From Fimbriimonas ginsengisoli Gsoil 348 (GTDB lineage Bacteria; Armatimonadota; Fimbriimonadia; Fimbriimonadales; Fimbriimonadaceae): a DNA stretch of 64,000 nt. The stretch covers positions 744,001 through 808,000 of the forward strand of contig NZ_CP007139.1 in NCBI RefSeq assembly GCF_000724625.1, read 5' to 3'. Position numbers and translations under genes: made by a program. The notes under the pieces were generated by a model, which was not told the origin of the DNA, did not search any database, and saw only the letters and a list, made by a program, of their open reading frames with translations. Of this stretch, positions 21,392 to 57,305 are shown piece by piece. Within the stretch, counting starts at the first letter, position 1. The number at the start of each line of letters is the position of its first letter.

Positions 21392-21507
21392 CGCGAAGCG
21401 TTGTAGCCGCAGGTTGGCTCGTACCTGCGGGCAGACCCCAAACGATCCTCGTGGTTGGTCATTGTCGAAACATCCTCGCGCAGGTACGAGCCAACCTGCG
21501 GCTGTAA
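21392..21507. repeat. Inverted pair of the 'AGCCGCAGGTTGGCTCGTACCTGCG' dispersed repeat
   Basis: A direct copy of the dispersed repeat at about 21392-21440 faces an inverted copy at 21478-21507, so arms of about 26 bp can form a long hairpin; each arm also contains its own CGCAGGT-N8-ACCTGCG stem. Direct copies recur at 50551-50600 and 57262-57305. The pair lies between convergent genes and could act as a bidirectional transcript end. Confidence 0.75.
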
Positions 21508-22947: not shown

Positions 22948-22975
22948 AGCGATATTGTGGGGCGGGGCCGGTCGT

Positions 22976-23048
22976 CCGGAGCCCCCTCTCCCTCCTTCGG
23001 ATGTACGTGCCGAACGAGGGAGAGGGGGTTGGGGGTGAGGGAGTCCGG
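22976..23048. repeat. 73-bp palindromic repeat, copy 1 (inverted relative to copy 2)
   Basis: Seventy-three bases that read, in reverse complement, as the same sequence as 27592-27664 with a single mismatch. Inside it a 13-bp stem CCCCCTCTCCCTC / GAGGGAGAGGGGG surrounds a TTCGG...CCGAA core. It lies between the nth start and the end of the next gene. Confidence 0.93.
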
Positions 23049-23076
23049 AAGAGCCGGTCTGGAGACCAGCGGTCCT

Positions 23077-23946
23077 CTAGTCGATCCGTTTGCCCGTCTT
23101 GTCGTCGTACTTGTCACCGGTAAGGGCATCTGCGATCTTCTCGGTAACGCCTCGGGTGTCCGGCGTTCCATCTAAGTCATGGCCTCCCGTCTGAATTCCC
23201 GGTTGGTTATTAGGAACTCCCGTTGGAGTGTGGTCCATGTAGTCCACGTCCCGAGGAGGATTGTCCGCGTAGGCGCCTGAGCCAGTGCCGGGGCTTCCTT
23301 GAGTGTAACGCCGGACCCTCGCCGCCGTTGCTTCGTCGATCGCTCCCGTCGTCAAGGCGTTTCGCTCCCGCTCGCGGGCGATCTCCTCGTCGGTTAGGAC
23401 CGGCGCCTCGCTGTCATAGCTGGAGAATCCCTCCTGCCGGTACGACTCCGCCCGGTCTTCGACATTCACCGCCCCGTCCCGGTCGAGAATCCGGTGCGCC
23501 TCGTCGGCTCGAGATTCGTCCGCTTCGATCGTCACGATGGTGCCCCCGCGGCGCACGCTCTCGGCATATACGTCCGCCTCGCTCTCCGGAATGCCGAGTC
23601 CGATCAGGCCACCCAGGATGCCGCCGGTGGCCGCGCCCGCCGCGCCGCCGGCAATCAGACCGGCGATCGGTCCCGCCGCGATCACGCCCGCTGGAACGAA
23701 GATCAGACCCGCGCCGATCAACAACCCCAGCAAACCGCCGACGACCGCCCCCGAAGTGAGTCCGGTAGCGGCCCCTTCACCCGACAAGTTTCCGTCCTCG
23801 CGGATATGCGACCGGTAAAGCTCGCCGCGCGGATCGGCGGCGAGCACGCTGACGCGGCGGCGATCGAAGCCGGCGGCGATTAAATCCATGACCGCGGTTT
23901 CCGCGGTATCCCGGTCGTCGAACAATCCTACAATTGTGGTTGCCAC
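23077..23946 (-). CDS. General-stress-type protein with glycine-zipper domain (GSP17M-like), paralogue A
   Basis: 289 aa from the GTG at 23946, chosen for the GAGGAG ribosome site about 8 nt upstream and match to the paralogue's N-terminus. N-terminal ACT-like half (TTIVGLFDDRDTAETAVMDLIAAGFDRRRVSVLAADP) is the 'general stress protein 17M-like' domain, then a Gly/Ala zipper of about 60 residues (TGLTSGAVVGGLLGLLIGAG...GAAGAATGGILGGLIGLG) likely to insert in membrane, then the second half IPESEADVYAESVRRGGTIVTIEA. A polar tail (TDEEIARERERNAL, GYAD repeats) ends it. Closely similar to the gene at 24601-25599. Such proteins are typical of desiccation/stress clusters. Confidence 0.87.
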   Translation of the reverse strand: MATTIVGLFDDRDTAETAVMDLIAAGFDRRRVSVLAADPRGELYRSHIREDGNLSGEGAATGLTSGAVVGGLLGLLIGAGLIFVPAGVIAAGPIAGLIAGGAAGAATGGILGGLIGLGIPESEADVYAESVRRGGTIVTIEADESRADEAHRILDRDGAVNVEDRAESYRQEGFSSYDSEAPVLTDEEIARERERNALTTGAIDEATAARVRRYTQGSPGTGSGAYADNPPRDVDYMDHTPTGVPNNQPGIQTGGHDLDGTPDTRGVTEKIADALTGDKYDDKTGKRID

Positions 23947-24033
23947 AGTTTGTTTCTCCTCTTGGTTTTGAAGCGGTCCCGGCAACGCGTGGCCGCAGAT
24001 GTTGGACCCGGCCCTATTGCCTAGTGTTCGCAA

Positions 24034-24582
24034 CTACGCCAAATGGGCACGATTGGCCGGCTCTTCCACGAAGGCCGAGCTTCGCCCCGGGACGCTCCGG
24101 CGGGTTTTGGTAACCCGGATCTCCTCTTTGAGGCGAAGTTTTCGTTGCACGACGAGAAACTCCTCCACCACCGGGATGATCGTGACGTCCCCTTCCTGCC
24201 TTACCTCGGGCGCCGTGTCGAGTATTTCGTCCATCGGGACTCGCTCGATCTCGACATCCTCGACCTCCACCATCCGATCGAGATCGGTAAAAGGCGGCGA
24301 GGCCAAATCTGGCTGTACTGGTGGTAAATCCATATTCATATCACCTGGTATCGCATGCATGTTCAAGAGATGCGCCGGATGGATCGGCACCGTCGGCAAC
24401 CCTTCGAACGAGAACCCGACGCGGTAGCCGGTTTCGCCATCGGCGGTTAACGCTTTTCGAGGGACGAGATAAGTCGTTCCCTCGGCATCGACGGCCACGT
24501 TGTTCGGCTCCACGACGCGCGTCGTCAGCGTCCCGGTCACCCCCCGCTTGTCGGTTACGAACTTTCGGTCGGAATGTGGCAT
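24034..24582 (-). CDS. DUF2382 (YsnF/AvaK)-domain stress protein
   Basis: 182 aa. The C-terminal half carries the DUF2382 signature (VVEEFLVVQRKLRLKEEIRVTKTR), preceded by VEIERVPMDEILDTAPEVRQEGDVTIIPV. The N-terminus is a small PRC-like/beta region (TYLVPRKALTADGETGYRVGF). Known members (YsnF of Bacillus, AvaK of Anabaena akinetes) are stress-linked, role unknown. It lies between two GSP17M-like paralogues on the same strand, which strengthens a shared stress function. The PRC-barrel link is inference. Confidence 0.87.
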   Translation of the reverse strand: MPHSDRKFVTDKRGVTGTLTTRVVEPNNVAVDAEGTTYLVPRKALTADGETGYRVGFSFEGLPTVPIHPAHLLNMHAIPGDMNMDLPPVQPDLASPPFTDLDRMVEVEDVEIERVPMDEILDTAPEVRQEGDVTIIPVVEEFLVVQRKLRLKEEIRVTKTRRSVPGRSSAFVEEPANRAHLA

Positions 24583-24600
24583 CTTGAACCCCCTTCTCCC

Positions 24601-25599
24601 CTAGATGAGCGAAGCTCCGGTGTTGCTCACCCGGGTCCCACCCAGCGACCAGCCGGTTTGGATTGCGTCCCGGTACCGATCCCAGGTTCCCGGATTGCTG
24701 CGCTCCCAGAGAGCGCGGGCCTGCGGCTCCGCGGTTTCCCAGGTCAGGCCTCGGAACTCGGCGCGGTGCGCCATTTCATTTCCGAACCGGTACGCCGGCC
24801 GGAAGGCGTCGTAAGACGAACCCGACGCCGCGTAGGTGCGGTCGAAGTGAGCTCGGAATTCCGGTTCTATCGAGTCGGGAACGACATAAGTCTCTTCGAC
24901 TACCGTGGCCCCGCCGGCCGGTGGGACCGTGCTAGTGCTGACGACCGCCGAACCGGGTACGCCCGGATCGGTAACCACCGTCGTCGGAACCGCCGCCGGG
25001 ACGATTCCTAGGCGGGCGCGCTCCGCAGCCACTTCCTCCGGCGTGTACACCGGCAGGTTCGGATCGTAGGCGGTGAACCCGTTCTGGCGGTAAAGGGCCG
25101 CCCGCTCTTGCACGTTCACCGCTCCGGCCATCGCCAGGATCTGCTCCACTCGAAGGCGGTCCGCCTCCTGTACTTCAACGGTGACCATCGTGCCGCCGCG
25201 CCGCACGCTCTCGGCGTAAATGTGTGCCTCTTCTTCGGGCAGACCAAGGCCGATCAACGCGCCGAGTAGCCCGCCCGACACCATGCCGACGCCTGCACCC
25301 GTGATCAGGCCAGCAAGCGGCCCGGCCACGAGGAAGCCGACCGGCGGCGCCGCCAACGTGGTCGCGCCAACGAGCAGACCGATAAGGCCGCCGACCAAAA
25401 GGCCCGAAGTAGCACCGGAAACTGCGCCCGCGCTGGCCAAGTTGCCGGATTGGTCGATCGTCTCCTTGCGGACGACCCCACCCGGGTCGGCCGCGACGAC
25501 ACTGATGTATTGCGTGTCGACGCCCGAAGCGATAAGTTGGCGAACCGCATAGTCCGCATGTGCGTGTGTGTCGAAGAGCCCAACAACGTTAGTAGCCAT
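24601..25599 (-). CDS. General-stress-type protein with glycine-zipper domain (GSP17M-like), paralogue B
   Basis: 332 aa. Same plan as the product at 23077-23946: TNVVGLFDTHAHADYAVRQLIASGVDTQYISVVAADPG, a Gly/Ala zipper of about 60 residues (GGLIGLLVGATTLAAPPVGFLVAGPLAGLITGAGVGM), then LPEEEAHIYAESVRRGGTMVTVEV. The C-terminus is longer, with a Pro/Val/Thr-rich linker and a region with repeated Phe/Tyr/Arg (EFRAHFDRTYAASGSSYDAFRPAYRFG) seen in other stress-cluster proteins. A gene duplication with divergence in the tails is the simplest reading. Confidence 0.87.
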   Translation of the reverse strand: MATNVVGLFDTHAHADYAVRQLIASGVDTQYISVVAADPGGVVRKETIDQSGNLASAGAVSGATSGLLVGGLIGLLVGATTLAAPPVGFLVAGPLAGLITGAGVGMVSGGLLGALIGLGLPEEEAHIYAESVRRGGTMVTVEVQEADRLRVEQILAMAGAVNVQERAALYRQNGFTAYDPNLPVYTPEEVAAERARLGIVPAAVPTTVVTDPGVPGSAVVSTSTVPPAGGATVVEETYVVPDSIEPEFRAHFDRTYAASGSSYDAFRPAYRFGNEMAHRAEFRGLTWETAEPQARALWERSNPGTWDRYRDAIQTGWSLGGTRVSNTGASLI

Positions 25600-25757
25600 G
25601 TCCTTTCTCCTTTGGAAATCCTGAATCTAAGACCTCGTAACCGATCACGACTTGGACAAGGAGAGGCACGGAACGGGTTCCGACCTTTTGGTGGTGCGCG
25701 AAGCGCCTTGGGACTGCGCGACCTCGGTCGCGCTTTGACGCCCCCTATGCGGAGACG
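25600..25757. other. Intergenic region without a gene
   Basis: 158 bp between the stress cluster and the lysozyme-like gene. I see no ORF, palindrome or terminator I would defend; it should hold the promoter of the stress genes. Confidence 0.4.
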
Positions 25758-27164
25758 TCAACGCCGATGCTTTCCGCCGCGCCGGCGGCCGCCACCACGG
25801 CTTGCTCCGTTGGAGACCCGAGAGGCGGTGGGTTGGGAAAGGGAGGAATCGGCGAGGTAATTGGTGCGATAGCGCATCCGGTCGATGATCTCGTACTCGT
25901 ACTTCGCGAGCTCAGCCAGCGACTTCGGCCGGACGGTGGCGACTACCTCGTTCAGGACGGAGCCTAACGAGGCGATACTGCCGGTATTAACCTTCCGGTC
26001 CATCAGGGTGGCCATTCCGGCTTCGGAGCGAATCACGTCGCTCACCTTGCCAGTGACGGTCTGACCTTCCAGGGTGACGGAGATAGGGTCGTCGCCGGGG
26101 TAGTACATCGTCTTCGCCGCCTTGATCTGAGCGGCAACGAACGGGTCGCTCCGTTGACCCGCGCGTTGGAAGACTGCGATGTAACGCTTGTCGTCGATGA
26201 TCTTCTTCGCCGCGTCCGGCCCGTGCAGCTCGGCTCCGGTGGCGAGGTCCAAGACCGCCAGAGAGCCGGTAGGCGTGACGTCGAGGCCGAAATCGCGAAA
26301 ATCTTTTTGATATTGGGTCGGATTGGCGGCGCGGTAGCTGAGCAGCATTCCTCCCAACGACCCCGCACCTTCTTTCAAGCAAGCAAACTGGATGAACCCG
26401 ATCGAGACGAAGCCGGTGTCGTACGTGTTAATCGAATCGAAACCACCTTCCAGCATCGAGACCGAGCGCATCACCTTCGCCTCGGCGTCGGAAATCCCCG
26501 CGAGGCGGAAAAGGTGATCGAGGCGATCCGAAGGGATGGACTTTACGGCCGTCCCCCCGGATGCGACCCCTTGGCCATACCGGTAGTACGGATAGCGCTG
26601 ATTCCAGATCCGGAAGTTGTCCTGGTAGGTCAGGCTTGCATCGTCGAATCGGATGTCGTGCTGCATCGGAACGACCGCCGCCGCAAACGCGGGAGGATTT
26701 CCGGCAAGAGCAGCGAGGGTCGGGGGGATTGGCCCCGGATCGGCGGGTTCCGTGGCTGGAGTGTCTTTATCCACCACCGGTAACGGTTTGCCAAGCACCT
26801 TCTGGTTACTGCGGATTGCCTGTTGCCAGGCCAGCCATCGGTCTCGGGCGATGCGGGCGGAGACCCAAGCCTCCCATCCTTTCTGCTCGTCGTTGGCGGG
26901 CTGCGCGTCGGCCGTCGGCGGCGCGCTTACCTTGCGCGCCTTGTTGTAATTCCACAGCCAAGTCGACCCTTCCGGAGTGAGCCGCACCTGCCACAGCCCC
27001 CTTTCCAAGGCACTGTCGGGGATCGATACGGTGTACCGATTCGGGTCGCTCCAGTACCGGAGAACGGCGTCCCTCTCATCCGGCGTAAAAACCGACTCAA
27101 CCTGGGTCTGCGCGGCCCCAATGGCGCTTAGCGAAGCGATTAGTACAACAGCTCGAAGTCGCAT
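25758..27164 (-). CDS. Secreted lysozyme/muramidase-like protein (tentative)
   Basis: 468 aa from the ATG at 27164, where a signal peptide begins (LRAVVLIASLSAIGAAQT); the earlier in-frame codons do not look like protein. Around residue 265, SMLEGGFDSINTYDTGFVSIGFIQFAC looks like the Glu...Ser-x-Gly-x-x-Gln core of lysozyme-like or chitosanase-like folds; the Glu of LEGG would be the acid. The N-terminal about 200 residues have proline-rich linkers. The C-terminus is a very basic Gly/Arg tail (RGGGRRRGGKHRR). The role in cell-wall cleavage is inference from this local resemblance only. Confidence 0.6.
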   Translation of the reverse strand: MRLRAVVLIASLSAIGAAQTQVESVFTPDERDAVLRYWSDPNRYTVSIPDSALERGLWQVRLTPEGSTWLWNYNKARKVSAPPTADAQPANDEQKGWEAWVSARIARDRWLAWQQAIRSNQKVLGKPLPVVDKDTPATEPADPGPIPPTLAALAGNPPAFAAAVVPMQHDIRFDDASLTYQDNFRIWNQRYPYYRYGQGVASGGTAVKSIPSDRLDHLFRLAGISDAEAKVMRSVSMLEGGFDSINTYDTGFVSIGFIQFACLKEGAGSLGGMLLSYRAANPTQYQKDFRDFGLDVTPTGSLAVLDLATGAELHGPDAAKKIIDDKRYIAVFQRAGQRSDPFVAAQIKAAKTMYYPGDDPISVTLEGQTVTGKVSDVIRSEAGMATLMDRKVNTGSIASLGSVLNEVVATVRPKSLAELAKYEYEIIDRMRYRTNYLADSSLSQPTASRVSNGASRGGGRRRGGKHRR

Positions 27165-27224
27165 CCTTGCTTTCCTCTTGGCTGGTTGTACCAGTTCCGC
27201 AGAGGAAAGGGGCAATTTTCGCAA

Positions 27225-27591
27225 TTCCAGCGTGGCGCTGTCTTTGTGTCCATTTGCAGATTAGCTTGACCTTTCCCTTCTCTGGGTTGACCATAGCCTG
27301 TGGCTTTACAGCCAATCTCTAAACTCTGGAACCCAATGTAGTTGCCAAACCCCGCATCAGCGCTGAAAGCGCGAACTCCTACAGCGAAGGGCCTAGCGGA
27401 GCGGAGCCCCTGGGTAGAGGCGCCGACAAACCTCCGAGCCCTGAAAGTGGCGACCTCATTCGTCGCCGTCCCTTCCGCTAAAGGCCGCAGGCACCCGGTA
27501 CGCATACCCGGCCTCGGGCAAACAAATGTTCTTAATGACCATCGGACCGGAGGTCCTCAGACATCACCGGTCAAACATCAAACATCACTTT
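27225..27591. other. Long intergenic region, no convincing gene
   Basis: 367 bp left of the second 73-bp repeat. Short open frames here show no coding character. I see no RNA gene. Confidence 0.4.
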
Positions 27592-27664
27592 CCGGACTCC
27601 CTCACCCCCAACCCCCTCTCCCTCGTTCGGCACATACATCCGAAGGAGGGAGAGGGGGCTCCGG
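27592..27664. repeat. 73-bp palindromic repeat, copy 2 (inverted relative to copy 1)
   Basis: Reverse complement of 22976-23048 with one difference (CACA instead of CACG in the centre). It ends 7 nt from the stop of the minus-strand hslU, so as RNA its GC-rich stem may serve as that gene's transcript end. Confidence 0.93.
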
Positions 27665-27670
27665 ATGGGG

Positions 27671-29062
27671 TTACAAAATCGAACGGTTGGTGACCGCTTC
27701 GCGGACAAATGGGGCTAAGCGGCGCTCGACGAGAGCGGCGTCGAAGCGGACGTTGACCGCGGTCTCAGGGGCGTCGAATAGCTCTGGTTCGAGGAGGCGC
27801 TCCATCATGGTGTGAAGTCGGCGGGCGCCGATATTCTCCGTCTTCTCGTTCACCTCGGCGGCCATCTTGGCGATCTGGTCCATGGCATCGGCAGAGAACG
27901 AGATGTCCACCCCTTCCACCGCCAACAGCTTCACGTACTGCTTCGTCAACGCATTCTTCGGCTCGAGAAGGATGCGGCGGAAGTCGTCTTGGCTCAGGCT
28001 TTCTAGCTCCACTCGGATCGGGAGGCGTCCCTGAAGCTCCGGAATCAAGTCGCTCGGCTTGGACATATGGAACGCGCCGGCGGCGATAAAGAGAATGTGG
28101 TCGGTGCGGATCGAACCGAACTTAGAGGCGACGGTTGACCCTTCGATGATCGGCAGCAGGTCGCGCTGAACCCCTTCCCGAGAGACGTCGGGACCGCTTC
28201 CGCCCGACTTTCCCGCCACCTTGTCGATCTCGTCCAAAAAGATGATTCCCGACTGCTCGGCCCGGTTGATCGCCTCGCGCTGGATGCTGCTCCGGTCGAC
28301 CATCTTCTTCGACTCTTCCTCGATCAACACCTCGCGGGCTTCGCGAACGTAGCTCTTGCGAGTCGAGTGCTTGGTTCCGCCGAACGCCCCCCCGAGCTGG
28401 TTCGTGTCGATCCCCATCTCCTCCATGCCGCCCGGCGTGAAGACTTGGAGGAACGGGTTGTTCGACTCCTCGACGTCGATCTCGACCATCCGGTCGTCGA
28501 ATTCACCCGATCGGAGCTTCGCCCGGATCTCCTCCCGGCGCTGCTCTCGCTCCCTCTCCTCAGCTTCCCAATCGACCTCTTCGGGCTCTTCCTGGCCGGT
28601 GAAGACGCTGGTCTGATATCGGTTCCACACGGCGGGCGTGTCGTCGAGCATCTCCACGAGGCGGTTCTCCGCCTCCCGCTCGGCATCCTCGCGCACCGCT
28701 TCGTACCGTTCCTTCTCGACAAGCCGCACGGCGACCGAAACAAGGTCGCGAACCATCGATTCCACGTCGCGGCCGACGTAACCGACCTCGGTGAATTTGG
28801 TCGCCTCAACCTTGACGAATGGGGCGCGGGCGAGCTGGGCAAGACGCCGCGCGATCTCGGTTTTGCCGACGCCGGTCGGGCCCATCATGAGGATGTTCTT
28901 CGGCAGTACGTCCTCGCGTTCCGCTTCCGGTAGCTGCTGTCGGCGGTACCGATTTCGGAGAGCGACGGCGACCGCGCGCTTAGCGGCGTTCTGGCCGACA
29001 ATGTACTTATCCAACTCCGCCACGATTTGGCGCGGAGTCAGGTCCTCAATGGGCAGGGGCAT
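27671..29062 (-). CDS. hslU: ATP-dependent protease ATPase subunit HslU (ClpY)
   Basis: 463 aa from the ATG at 29062; longer frames add a Pro/Ser-rich piece not seen in the family. N-terminal LTPRQIVAELDKYIVGQNAAKRAVAVALRNRYRR, Walker A GPTGVGKT, GYVGRDVESMVRDL pore segment, I-domain, Walker B IIFLDEIDK, and C-terminal sensor region GARRLHTMMERLLE. HslU unfolds substrates for the HslV peptidase. The usual partner hslV is not on either side here, which is atypical because hslV and hslU are generally adjacent. The protein ends VTNRSIL. Confidence 0.96.
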   Translation of the reverse strand: MPLPIEDLTPRQIVAELDKYIVGQNAAKRAVAVALRNRYRRQQLPEAEREDVLPKNILMMGPTGVGKTEIARRLAQLARAPFVKVEATKFTEVGYVGRDVESMVRDLVSVAVRLVEKERYEAVREDAEREAENRLVEMLDDTPAVWNRYQTSVFTGQEEPEEVDWEAEEREREQRREEIRAKLRSGEFDDRMVEIDVEESNNPFLQVFTPGGMEEMGIDTNQLGGAFGGTKHSTRKSYVREAREVLIEEESKKMVDRSSIQREAINRAEQSGIIFLDEIDKVAGKSGGSGPDVSREGVQRDLLPIIEGSTVASKFGSIRTDHILFIAAGAFHMSKPSDLIPELQGRLPIRVELESLSQDDFRRILLEPKNALTKQYVKLLAVEGVDISFSADAMDQIAKMAAEVNEKTENIGARRLHTMMERLLEPELFDAPETAVNVRFDAALVERRLAPFVREAVTNRSIL

Positions 29063-30264: not shown

Positions 30265-30349
30265 GTGGCACTGGCATCTTGCCAGTGGGTCCCAAGGGCT
30301 TCCAGCCCTTGGCCCCTTAACACGACCAGGACGGTCGTGACACACGGGC
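30265..30349. repeat. Three consecutive stem-N5-stem hairpins between convergent genes
   Basis: CACTGGC-N5-GCCAGTG (30269-30287), CCAAGGGC-N5-GCCCTTGG (30292-30312) and CACGACC-N5-GGTCGTG (30321-30339). All have a five-base loop. The same design appears at 9828, 31499 and four times at 42104-42198. Likely transcript-end structures. Confidence 0.75.
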
Positions 30350-39059: not shown

Positions 39060-39754
39060 TTATTAGCTCCAATCGGGCGGAAGGGATTCACCTGCCCCAG
39101 ACGTGAAATCGCCGTGTGGGCTCGCAAGGCCCTTCGATCGGTTAAGCCGCCTCCTTCCGACCTCGGAGAGGTCGCAGAAATTTGACCCGCGTCAGCAGAC
39201 CCGGGGTAAGGAGCCGCCACCTTAACCCGACCTCCGAGGCGCTTGCCCTTACCCACGTCTTGGATCAAGGCACGAACCTCCATCCTGCGCCTGGTACCTG
39301 TCACGTCATGACGAACTTTGCCGCTCCAGACACCTGGGTCCAAAGTGCTTGGCCCTAGTGGCCACCTGCCGGATTCGGGAACAGAGGTTTCGCTCAGTGG
39401 AACCCTCTCCCTCGCACCTGAGGGGGAGGGCAGGGTGGGGGAGCGCTCAACACGTCCCAGTCCTTTGAATAAACACCTTGTATTCAACGGACTTGTGGCA
39501 GGAATCGTCCACCCCCTCCCCTGCCCTCCCCCGCCTTGGCGGGGGAGGGTTCTCGCTGGCCAAACCCTTATCCCATCTTGCGGAAGGTTGCCGATCTAGA
39601 TCCTGCCGAACCGGACACGAGGACCGAAGATGTGGATAAGGACAAGCTCGAAGGTGGTCGCAAAATGCTGGCGAAAAGTCTCCCGTGTATCCGGTCGACG
39701 AAAAGTCACCAATGTTGAACGTCCGAGATCCATAATGGACGCTTAAGTAATATT
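39060..39754 (-). other. 695-bp spacer between kdpA and kdpB with palindromic elements
   Basis: No gene with coding character. It holds a composite inverted repeat at about 39400-39555: GC-rich arms (CCCTCTCCCTCGCACCTGAGGGGGAGGG and the mirror GGGGGAGGGCAGGG/CCCTGCCCTCCCCC) around a TTGAATA-N10-TATTCAA core at 39463-39486. Close to kdpB, on the coding strand, GGTGAATC, CTTCCGCCCGA and AGCTAA occur in order (39063-39092); these resemble blocks of the c-di-AMP (ydaO) riboswitch but lack the rest of its structure. A single ATAAGGA half-site is at 39636-39642. Confidence 0.7.
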
Positions 39755-42098: not shown

Positions 42099-42203
42099 CG
42101 TGGCACGGGCTTCCAGCCCGTGTGTATCACGAGCATCCTGCTCGTGTAATTCCGCCAAGGGCAGGATGCCCTTGGGACCCACGGGCTGGAAGCCCGTGCC
42201 ACG
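42099..42203. repeat. Cluster of four stem-N5-stem hairpins between kdpE and the kdp structural genes
   Basis: CACGGGC-N5-GCCCGTG (42104-42122), CACGAGC-N5-GCTCGTG (42128-42146), CCAAGGGC-N5-GCCCTTGG (42155-42175) and CACGGGC-N5-GCCCGTG (42180-42198). The first and last are also reverse complements of each other. As the end of the kdpDE transcript it should form a strong structure and may separate it from the structural operon. Confidence 0.83.
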
Positions 42204-57266: not shown

Positions 57267-57305
57267 AGCCGTGTAGCCGCAGGTTGGCTCGTACCTGCGT
57301 CCCGT
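57262..57305. repeat. Dispersed 'AGCCGCAGGTTGGCTCGTACCTGCG' repeat, copy 3
   Basis: GTGAAGCCGTGTAGCCGCAGG followed by TTGGCTCGTACCTGCGTC; same unit as at 21392-21440. It lies at the broken end of the truncated gene. Confidence 0.75.

Follow-up and report, generated by a model that had tools for sequence, protein, structure and literature searches.

The BoxC repeat of E. coli has been known since the 1990s and was rediscovered in 2000 as the PIT elements (PMC4666352). Holder and colleagues counted 23 copies in strain MG1655 and found that oligonucleotides form triplexes in vitro; the surroundings of the repeats are more variable between strains, and the published pattern combines a first loop of 3-6 nucleotides (nt) with a second loop of 3 nt, the search having allowed loops of 1-6 nt (PMC4666352). 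No specific function is assigned to bacterial intrastrand triplex repeats in the excerpts of that paper drawn on here (PMC4666352). Among the repetitive extragenic palindromic (REP) sequences of E. coli, RepRanger found 446 of 4072 candidates to lie no more than 15 nt from a stop codon, and an earlier study proposed that 260 of 496 REPs act near stops by stalling ribosomes within 15 nt (excerpts of PMC12306157, the earlier study as cited there). Here we analyzed 64,000 nt of the Fimbriimonas ginsengisoli Gsoil 348 genome (NZ_CP007139.1, positions 744,001 to 808,000), a stretch referred to throughout as the window, in which two inverted copies of a 75-nt palindromic element enclose a small group of genes. 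We think it quite probable that these repeats belong to a family of at least 106 non-coding copies, scattered over the genome, of a long-loop intrastrand-triplex repeat of the BoxC/PIT class, which would have spread at gene ends, fold as a triplex and act through its hairpin, and that their bracketing of the genes is due to chance.

A repeat search of the window returned arms at 22975-23050 and 27590-27665, inverted, 76 nt long, 99% complementary and separated by 4539 nt. One base distinguishes the two 75-nt copies, and it lies in the hairpin loop (TGTACGTG versus TGTATGTG). Each copy has a predicted hairpin of -44.6 to -46.3 kcal/mol, a stability that 0 or 1 of 200 shuffled sequences equalled, and the window contains exactly two occurrences of the core 25-mer, a number that none of 100 shuffles equalled. 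The initial annotation had described near-identical inverted repeats, each a strong palindrome, and in both respects it was right. No Rfam family matched at its gathering score anywhere in the window.

Across the whole genome, a single contig of 5,231,762 bases, the element was found in at least 106 places with a covariance model, R1, built from 29 copies out of 36 distinct sequences. The search gave 149 matches at E <= 0.01, 43 of which were sorted by hand as opposite-strand readings of copies already counted; the best 150 of 3876 candidates were scored, so that 106 is a lower bound. A 106-base query recovered at least 40 strong copies (40 of 170 candidates having been scored), and a 25-base core had 65 genome matches at up to 3 mismatches. 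The reversed core, used as a control, had 59 at the same tolerance; it is nearly mirror-symmetric and, shifted by one base, differs from the core at two positions, so the same places should be found. Seven copies tie at the top model score, and near-identity such as that of the window pair is common to many copies genome-wide. Ninety-four of the 106 are intergenic, with no overlap of more than 30 nt with a called gene; the 12 that do overlap may reflect errors of the gene caller.

Read on its G-rich strand, the element consists of TCCGGAG, a 13-nt C-arm, C, a 5-bp nested hairpin with a 9-nt loop, C, a 13-nt G-arm, TT, a 13-nt G-rich tail and TCCGGA, the loop between the 13-nt arms of the window copies being 21 nt long and holding the nested hairpin. 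The features of the window that bear on the element are as follows, with departures given as means from the consensus of the first 77 copies.

22975..23049, + strand (the G-rich strand): copy 1, whole element, 75 nt, model score 105.5 bits
22975..22981, + strand: 5' foot TCCGGAG of copy 1, 14% mean departure
22982..22994, + strand: C-arm CCCCCTCTCCCTC of copy 1, first strand, 2.2% mean departure
22996..23014, + strand: nested hairpin TTCGG-ATGTACGTG-CCGAA within the loop of copy 1, from the fold and compensatory changes
23016..23028, + strand: G-arm GAGGGAGAGGGGG of copy 1, second (purine) strand, 2.9% mean departure
23031..23043, + strand: tail GGGGGTGAGGGAG of copy 1, proposed third strand, all 13 triplets being G·G, A·A or T·A, 3.1% mean departure, arm-tail covariation
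23044..23049, + strand: terminal TCCGGA of copy 1, from the sequence
23050..23077, no strand given: a second, distinct palindromic unit AGAGCCGGTCTGGAGACCAGCGGTCCTC, joined to copy 1 and extending to the stop codon of the gene at 23077-23985
27591..27665, - strand (the G-rich strand): copy 2, whole element, 75 nt, 106.3 bits, starting 5 nt past the stop codon of the hslU-like gene
27646..27658, - strand: C-arm of copy 2, from the sequence
27626..27644, - strand: nested hairpin of copy 2, from sequence and fold
27612..27624, - strand: G-arm of copy 2, from the sequence
27597..27609, - strand: tail of copy 2, proposed third strand, from the sequence
27671..29062, - strand: hslU-like AAA+ gene, with its stop codon ahead of copy 2; Pfam shows AAA families, and we take the product to be HslU
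25758..27164, - strand: gene of a 468-aa protein, adjoining hslU, without a Pfam match

The paired parts are tightly kept. Over the 29 copies, hairpin pairing holds in 99.2% of cells and the nested stem carries 25 double-sided compensations. By position, the first 77 copies depart from consensus by 3.1% in the tail, 2.2 and 2.9% in the arms, 16-17% in the inner stem, 14-27% at the ends and 57-60% in the outer flanks; at the GGAG foot positions 10-14% of these copies depart, and the foot is retained in some relatives and lost in others. Other forms occur in the same genome, one of 65 nt (arm GAGGAGGGGG, tail GGGGGTGGAG) and a rarer one (arm GAAGGGAGAGGG, tail GGGTGAGGGATG); relatives have further arm types, again with tails that match. 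In one copy (G000:C1:26491-26565) the nested hairpin is flipped relative to the arms; this copy directly follows an ordinary hairpin-and-T-run terminator. The palindromic unit AGAGCCGGTCTGGAGACCAGCGGTCCTC is also found after some other copies of the element.

This plan is that of the BoxC/PIT/TM_ECO repeats of E. coli and other Proteobacteria, which likewise have a C-arm, a G-arm and a G-tail that form purine-motif (class II) triplets, share the core CCCTCTCCC ... GGGAGAGGG ... GGGTGAGGG, and are dispersed and intergenic with many near-identical copies (PMC4666352). It differs in having a 21-nt loop with a nested, covarying hairpin where BoxC has 3-6 nt, 13 triplets where BoxC has 9, a spacer of 2 nt instead of 3, TCCGGA ends, anchoring at stop codons and one main orientation (PMC4666352). 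Held against the strict BoxC definition, the element has the triplets, with at most one mismatch, and the intergenic location, but neither the first loop of 3-6 nt nor the second loop of 3 nt, and the strict E. coli pattern has no exact match in the genome. Judged by its sequence, the element is a long-loop variant of the BoxC/PIT/TM_ECO intrastrand-triplex repeat and a new form of it.

Evidence that the tail matters as a third strand comes from how it varies with the arm. When the tail of either window copy is set antiparallel to the G-arm, every one of the 13 positions is G·G, A·A or T·A, and these are the triplets of purine-motif triplexes. In this register the spacer between arm and tail is TT, 2 nt; other elements parse with 1-4 nt. 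We extended the test to 212 elements of this and related genomes, of which 25 were dropped (19 unparsed, 6 with non-purine arms), leaving 187, or 85 unique elements of 12 arm types, compared over 10 positions; for the relatives, loci of up to 3030 nt and two or three without an element were left aside in parsing and in the stop-codon and arm-tail counts. With the best spacer of 1-4 nt chosen, 163 of the 187 parsed elements are perfect over the 10 positions. The tail base facing G is G in 634 of 671 cases, and that facing A is A or T in 170 of 179. Eight of the 12 arms have a commonest tail that scores 10/10 with its own arm, and for seven of these no rival arm equals that score; a ninth arm, AGGGAGAGGG, scores 10 in three of four copies. 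Summed over the 85 unique elements, the score of tails with their own arms is 804, against a mean of 711 for permuted arms, and none of 2000 permutations reaches 804, a count that overstates the certainty and is not a probability, since the elements are related and not independent. R1 encodes no arm-tail pairing and therefore does not select for such a match. Because the match of arm and tail beats that of permuted arms, these results suggest that the third strand is conserved.

The second feature is position. The C-arm end lies -8 to +15 nt from a same-strand stop codon in 58 of 106 copies, 39 of them at 0-5 nt, compared with 116 of 2306 intergenic positions drawn at random from the loci of the copies, which were scored over 0 to +15, a range that holds 56 of the 58. 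The remaining three side-and-strand classes have 5, 0 and 7 copies. The tail side adjoins a facing stop in seven copies, five of which are also among the 58, and 60 of 106 distinct copies lie by a gene end of any kind. Genes were called with a simple codon-usage caller, and 56 of the 58 stop-proximal genes are at least 300 nt long with a good codon score. Copy 2 of the window belongs to this class, 5 nt after the hslU stop. A replication-strand bias was considered and discarded, the raw counts of + and - copies by chromosome quarter being 9/14, 15/11, 18/15 and 9/15. The element resembles REPs and bacterial interspersed mosaic elements (BIMEs), which are palindromic, dispersed, often just past stops and found in mosaics with other small repeats; its share near stops, 58 of 106, is similar to the 260 of 496 of the E. 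coli REP set, RepRanger's broader set having 446 of 4072 (PMC12306157). It differs from REPs in that its third-strand tail follows triplet rules and no Y1 gene stands beside its copies. In the excerpted literature on the triplex class, which did not include the original PIT papers, we found no report of arm-tail covariation or of stop-codon anchoring; the latter is known for REPs and, for the triplex class, was not found in print in these sources.

At the hslU site the history of one copy can be read. An hslU-like gene was matched in 19 of 20 genomes of the genus, its own included, and hslU and the gene at 25758-27164 are direct neighbors on one strand in 13 of 14 relatives. In these 13, the spacers between them (31-186 nt between alignment ends) do not contain the element, and the spacer in the window is about 500 nt. 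Copy 2 is thus best read as a lineage-specific insertion 5 nt past the hslU stop codon, as all 13 spacers of relatives are without it. The 468-aa product of 25758-27164, encoded directly after hslU in the same 13 of 14 relatives, is a conserved hslU neighbor. At a broader scale, 37 of 61 genomes of the class have a match at E <= 0.001, in widely varying numbers. The exact 13-nt-arm form had no match in a wider collection of genome contigs, from which records of its own genome may be excluded, and a looser long-loop form was found in at least 118 stretches, the titles among the 80 matches listed naming Chloroflexi, Planctomycetes, Acidobacteria, Bacteroidetes, Armatimonadota, Gammaproteobacteria and others.

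We propose that copies spread by insertion at gene ends. When single-stranded, on the lagging strand or where it is displaced behind RNA polymerase, the G-rich strand would fold into a purine-motif triplex, as predicted from the triplet rule and the covariation, and this folding would be the reason for which the tail is retained. In mRNA, the hairpin just past the stop codon would act as reported for REPs, holding terminating ribosomes or blocking 3' exonucleases, and would thereby tune the upstream gene. The hairpin and not the triplex would act at this level, because RNA is stated not to form triplexes of the purine motif (PMC4666352). A bolder form of the proposal, which we put forward tentatively and would not expect to be correct in full, takes the three-stranded fold itself as the conserved unit: selection, or a copying machinery that depends on folding, would keep the tail matched to the arm by the triplet rules in most of the 12 arm types, and in Fimbriimonas-type genomes the fold would now be a directional module just past TAA and TAG stops, whose target at gene ends would be the termination of translation or the transcription bubble.

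A number of observations weigh against the triplex-repeat reading. The remaining three arm types, each a single copy, score 9/10, and another arm fits their tails better. The tail is lost in at least four of the 106 copies (3490726, 4487127, 2394040 and 3807292), and R1 scores the tail, which makes tail-less copies harder to detect. The runs of G could instead form a G-quadruplex. For E. coli BoxC, in vivo footprinting gave no support for a stable triplex, neither promoter nor terminator activity was found, and there was no strand or distance trend relative to genes (PMC4666352). The element's action on genes is something that we infer. As for position, 48 of the 106 copies, including copy 1 of the window, fall outside the class in which the C-arm comes first after a stop; in copy 1, 27 nt separate the tail end from the stop of the facing gene at 23077-23985. 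Anchoring is weaker in relatives, where 16 of 76 loci in total are stop-proximal (6 of 30 in G031, 7 of 25 in mixed genomes and 3 of 21 in a further set) as judged against the random control of the F. ginsengisoli genome. Genome G046 has 1 of 30. A multi-phylum set (loci L286-L365) has no enrichment on the C-arm side, with 4 of 72 against 167 of 2898 random positions, and has instead a facing stop no more than 20 nt from the tail side of 11 of 72 long-loop copies, versus 167 of 2898, a weaker link with gene ends and of the opposite orientation; the 72 matches represent 61 loci, four pairs being overlapping readings of both strands, and were taken from loci of at least 3000 nt at no less than 400 nt from the locus end. 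We therefore rejected a gene-end bias as a universal property of the element, as it is absent on the C-arm side in these matches from other phyla and in G046. That genome (L194-L222) carries a short-loop form inside larger palindromic units, some of them in tandem.

Part of the stop-codon pattern may reflect an insertion target, because TGA is rare beside the copies: it is the stop in 5 of the 58 stop-proximal genes and in 126 of 362 other genes. On this account the element inserts by TA-containing sites, TAA and TAG stops are common sites of that kind between densely packed genes, and the position has no function. Copies that are not stop-proximal also have TAA or TAG within 12 nt upstream in 13 of 48 cases, compared with 618 of 3640 random intergenic 12-mers, but this enrichment away from stops is small (27% versus 17%), the distance of the stop upstream varies and is not fixed, the flanks are not conserved, and inspection by eye, which was no systematic search for duplications, showed neither a motif in the flanks nor a duplicated target. 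We regard the account as possible, though less likely than not.

The element could also be a plain REP mobilized by a REP-associated tyrosine transposase (RAYT), its Y1 transposase recognizing the 5' GGAG foot and the hairpin, with the tail a part of the recognition sequence. RAYT-associated REPs are defined by a 5' GTAG or GGAG tetranucleotide next to the palindrome, and a GGAG beside an imperfect palindrome resembles the feet of RAYT-associated REPs. The genome has 13 Y1_Tnp matches, and over 61 genomes the numbers of Y1 matches and of elements correlate (Spearman 0.41, p 0.001, uncorrected for kinship). Against this, none of the 13 Y1 loci has a core, at up to 6 mismatches, within 1.5 kb; genome G053 has 34 elements and no Y1 match, and G044 has 22 Y1 matches and no element; the GGAG foot, as noted above, is retained in some relatives and lost in others; and covariation of tail and arm by triplet rules is left unexplained. 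A separate palindrome headed by GTAG is, by the GTAG rule, the better fit to a RAYT partner. We thus rejected a RAYT partner, with no Y1 match beside copies, an only moderate correlation of counts and exceptions in both directions, and consider mobilization of this kind unlikely. The GTAG-headed family (CGTAGCGTCGGCGCCCTCGCCGATGA; loci L427-L456) has 104 genome matches at up to 3 mismatches, resembles a REP of the RAYT type and may partner some of the 13 Y1 matches; a gene end adjoins it, on either side, in 7 of 30 loci, compared with the 60 of 106 of the element. Miniature inverted-repeat transposable elements (MITEs) are similarly short, non-coding and dispersed with an inverted structure, and the element is unlike them in having a single hairpin and a tail instead of transposon terminal inverted repeats; nor was a partner transposase found, or a duplicated target seen by eye.

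A transcription terminator, a hairpin at a gene end that stops transcription, would account for the gene-end position and the very stable hairpin. The hairpin is not followed by a T-run, however, the copy at G000:C1:26491 already sits just past an ordinary hairpin-and-T-run, and PIT elements lack terminator activity in E. coli (PMC4666352). Terminator-like sites occur within 150 nt after 2 of the 58 stop-proximal copies and, at other gene ends of the same loci, in 15 of 317 cases within the first 80 nt and in 11 of 317 between 75 and 225 nt, counts that give no sign either way. With no T-run, and with such sites as rare by the copies as elsewhere, we rejected a terminator as a quite improbable explanation.

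The pair had drawn attention as a bracket. According to Pfam, the genes between the copies encode two YflT-domain proteins, a DUF2382 protein and the 468-aa protein, and the flanking genes an HhH-GPD (nth-like) and an AAA+ (hslU-like) protein. Of the content given in the initial annotation, DUF2382 was confirmed and the two stress proteins proved to be YflT-domain proteins; the lysozyme-like protein has no Pfam match and was not confirmed. Fourteen neighboring pairs of copies, this one included and four of them inverted, are as close as the window pair, where 9.3 (9.26) would be expected for 106 random places and 5.1 for 77. With at least 106 copies and so many close pairs, the bracket calls for no separate explanation, and the enclosure of stress genes looks like a coincidence. 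A functional bracket whose 4.5-kb stress-gene segment flips by RecA-mediated recombination, which the 76-nt length, 99% identity and inverted orientation might suggest and which is physically possible for this pair, though no less so for any other inverted pair of copies, is very improbable and was rejected on copy number and synteny, as the enclosed genes all point the same way as both neighbors, nth and hslU, and there is no sign of inversion at the right-hand boundary, the only one covered, where order and strand of hslU and 25758-27164 are kept in 13 of 14 relatives with the element absent. The other enclosed genes had no tblastn match (E up to 1e-4) in 13-17 kb around hslU in the 14 relatives. 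A bracketed stress cluster acting as a unit and an invertible segment, both raised at first, thus find no support. The initial annotation had also allowed, in an alternative that comes close, for a widespread REP-type element near gene ends, of which dozens of copies genome-wide would make the bracketing coincidental, and such numbers were found; its suggestion of recent spread agrees with the seven copies tied at the top score and with the empty hslU site in the 13 readable relatives.

Other repeats of the window are separate observations. Another dispersed palindrome family is represented at 21405-21503 by a 25-nt inverted repeat without mismatches, AGCCGCAGGTTGGCTCGTACCTGCG, and 36 kb away by one more copy at 57275-57299. 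An inverted pair at 30265-30345 and 42122-42202 is 81 nt long and 80% matched, its right-hand copy lying inside a GTGGCACGGGCTTCCAGCCCGTG-like palindrome. An inverted repeat rich in C and G at 39407-39547 could be a degraded relative of the triplex element.

The long-loop form of the repeat falls outside the published search settings, which allowed loops of 1-6 nt (PMC4666352). Arm-tail covariation and stop-codon anchoring are the two features of the element that merit specialist interest. The covariation is evolutionary evidence that the third strand matters, and it is not predicted by a reading of the element as only a hairpin or as a recognition site. A genome in which more than half of the copies found lie by a stop codon, in one main orientation, offers a natural system for probing the function of the element.

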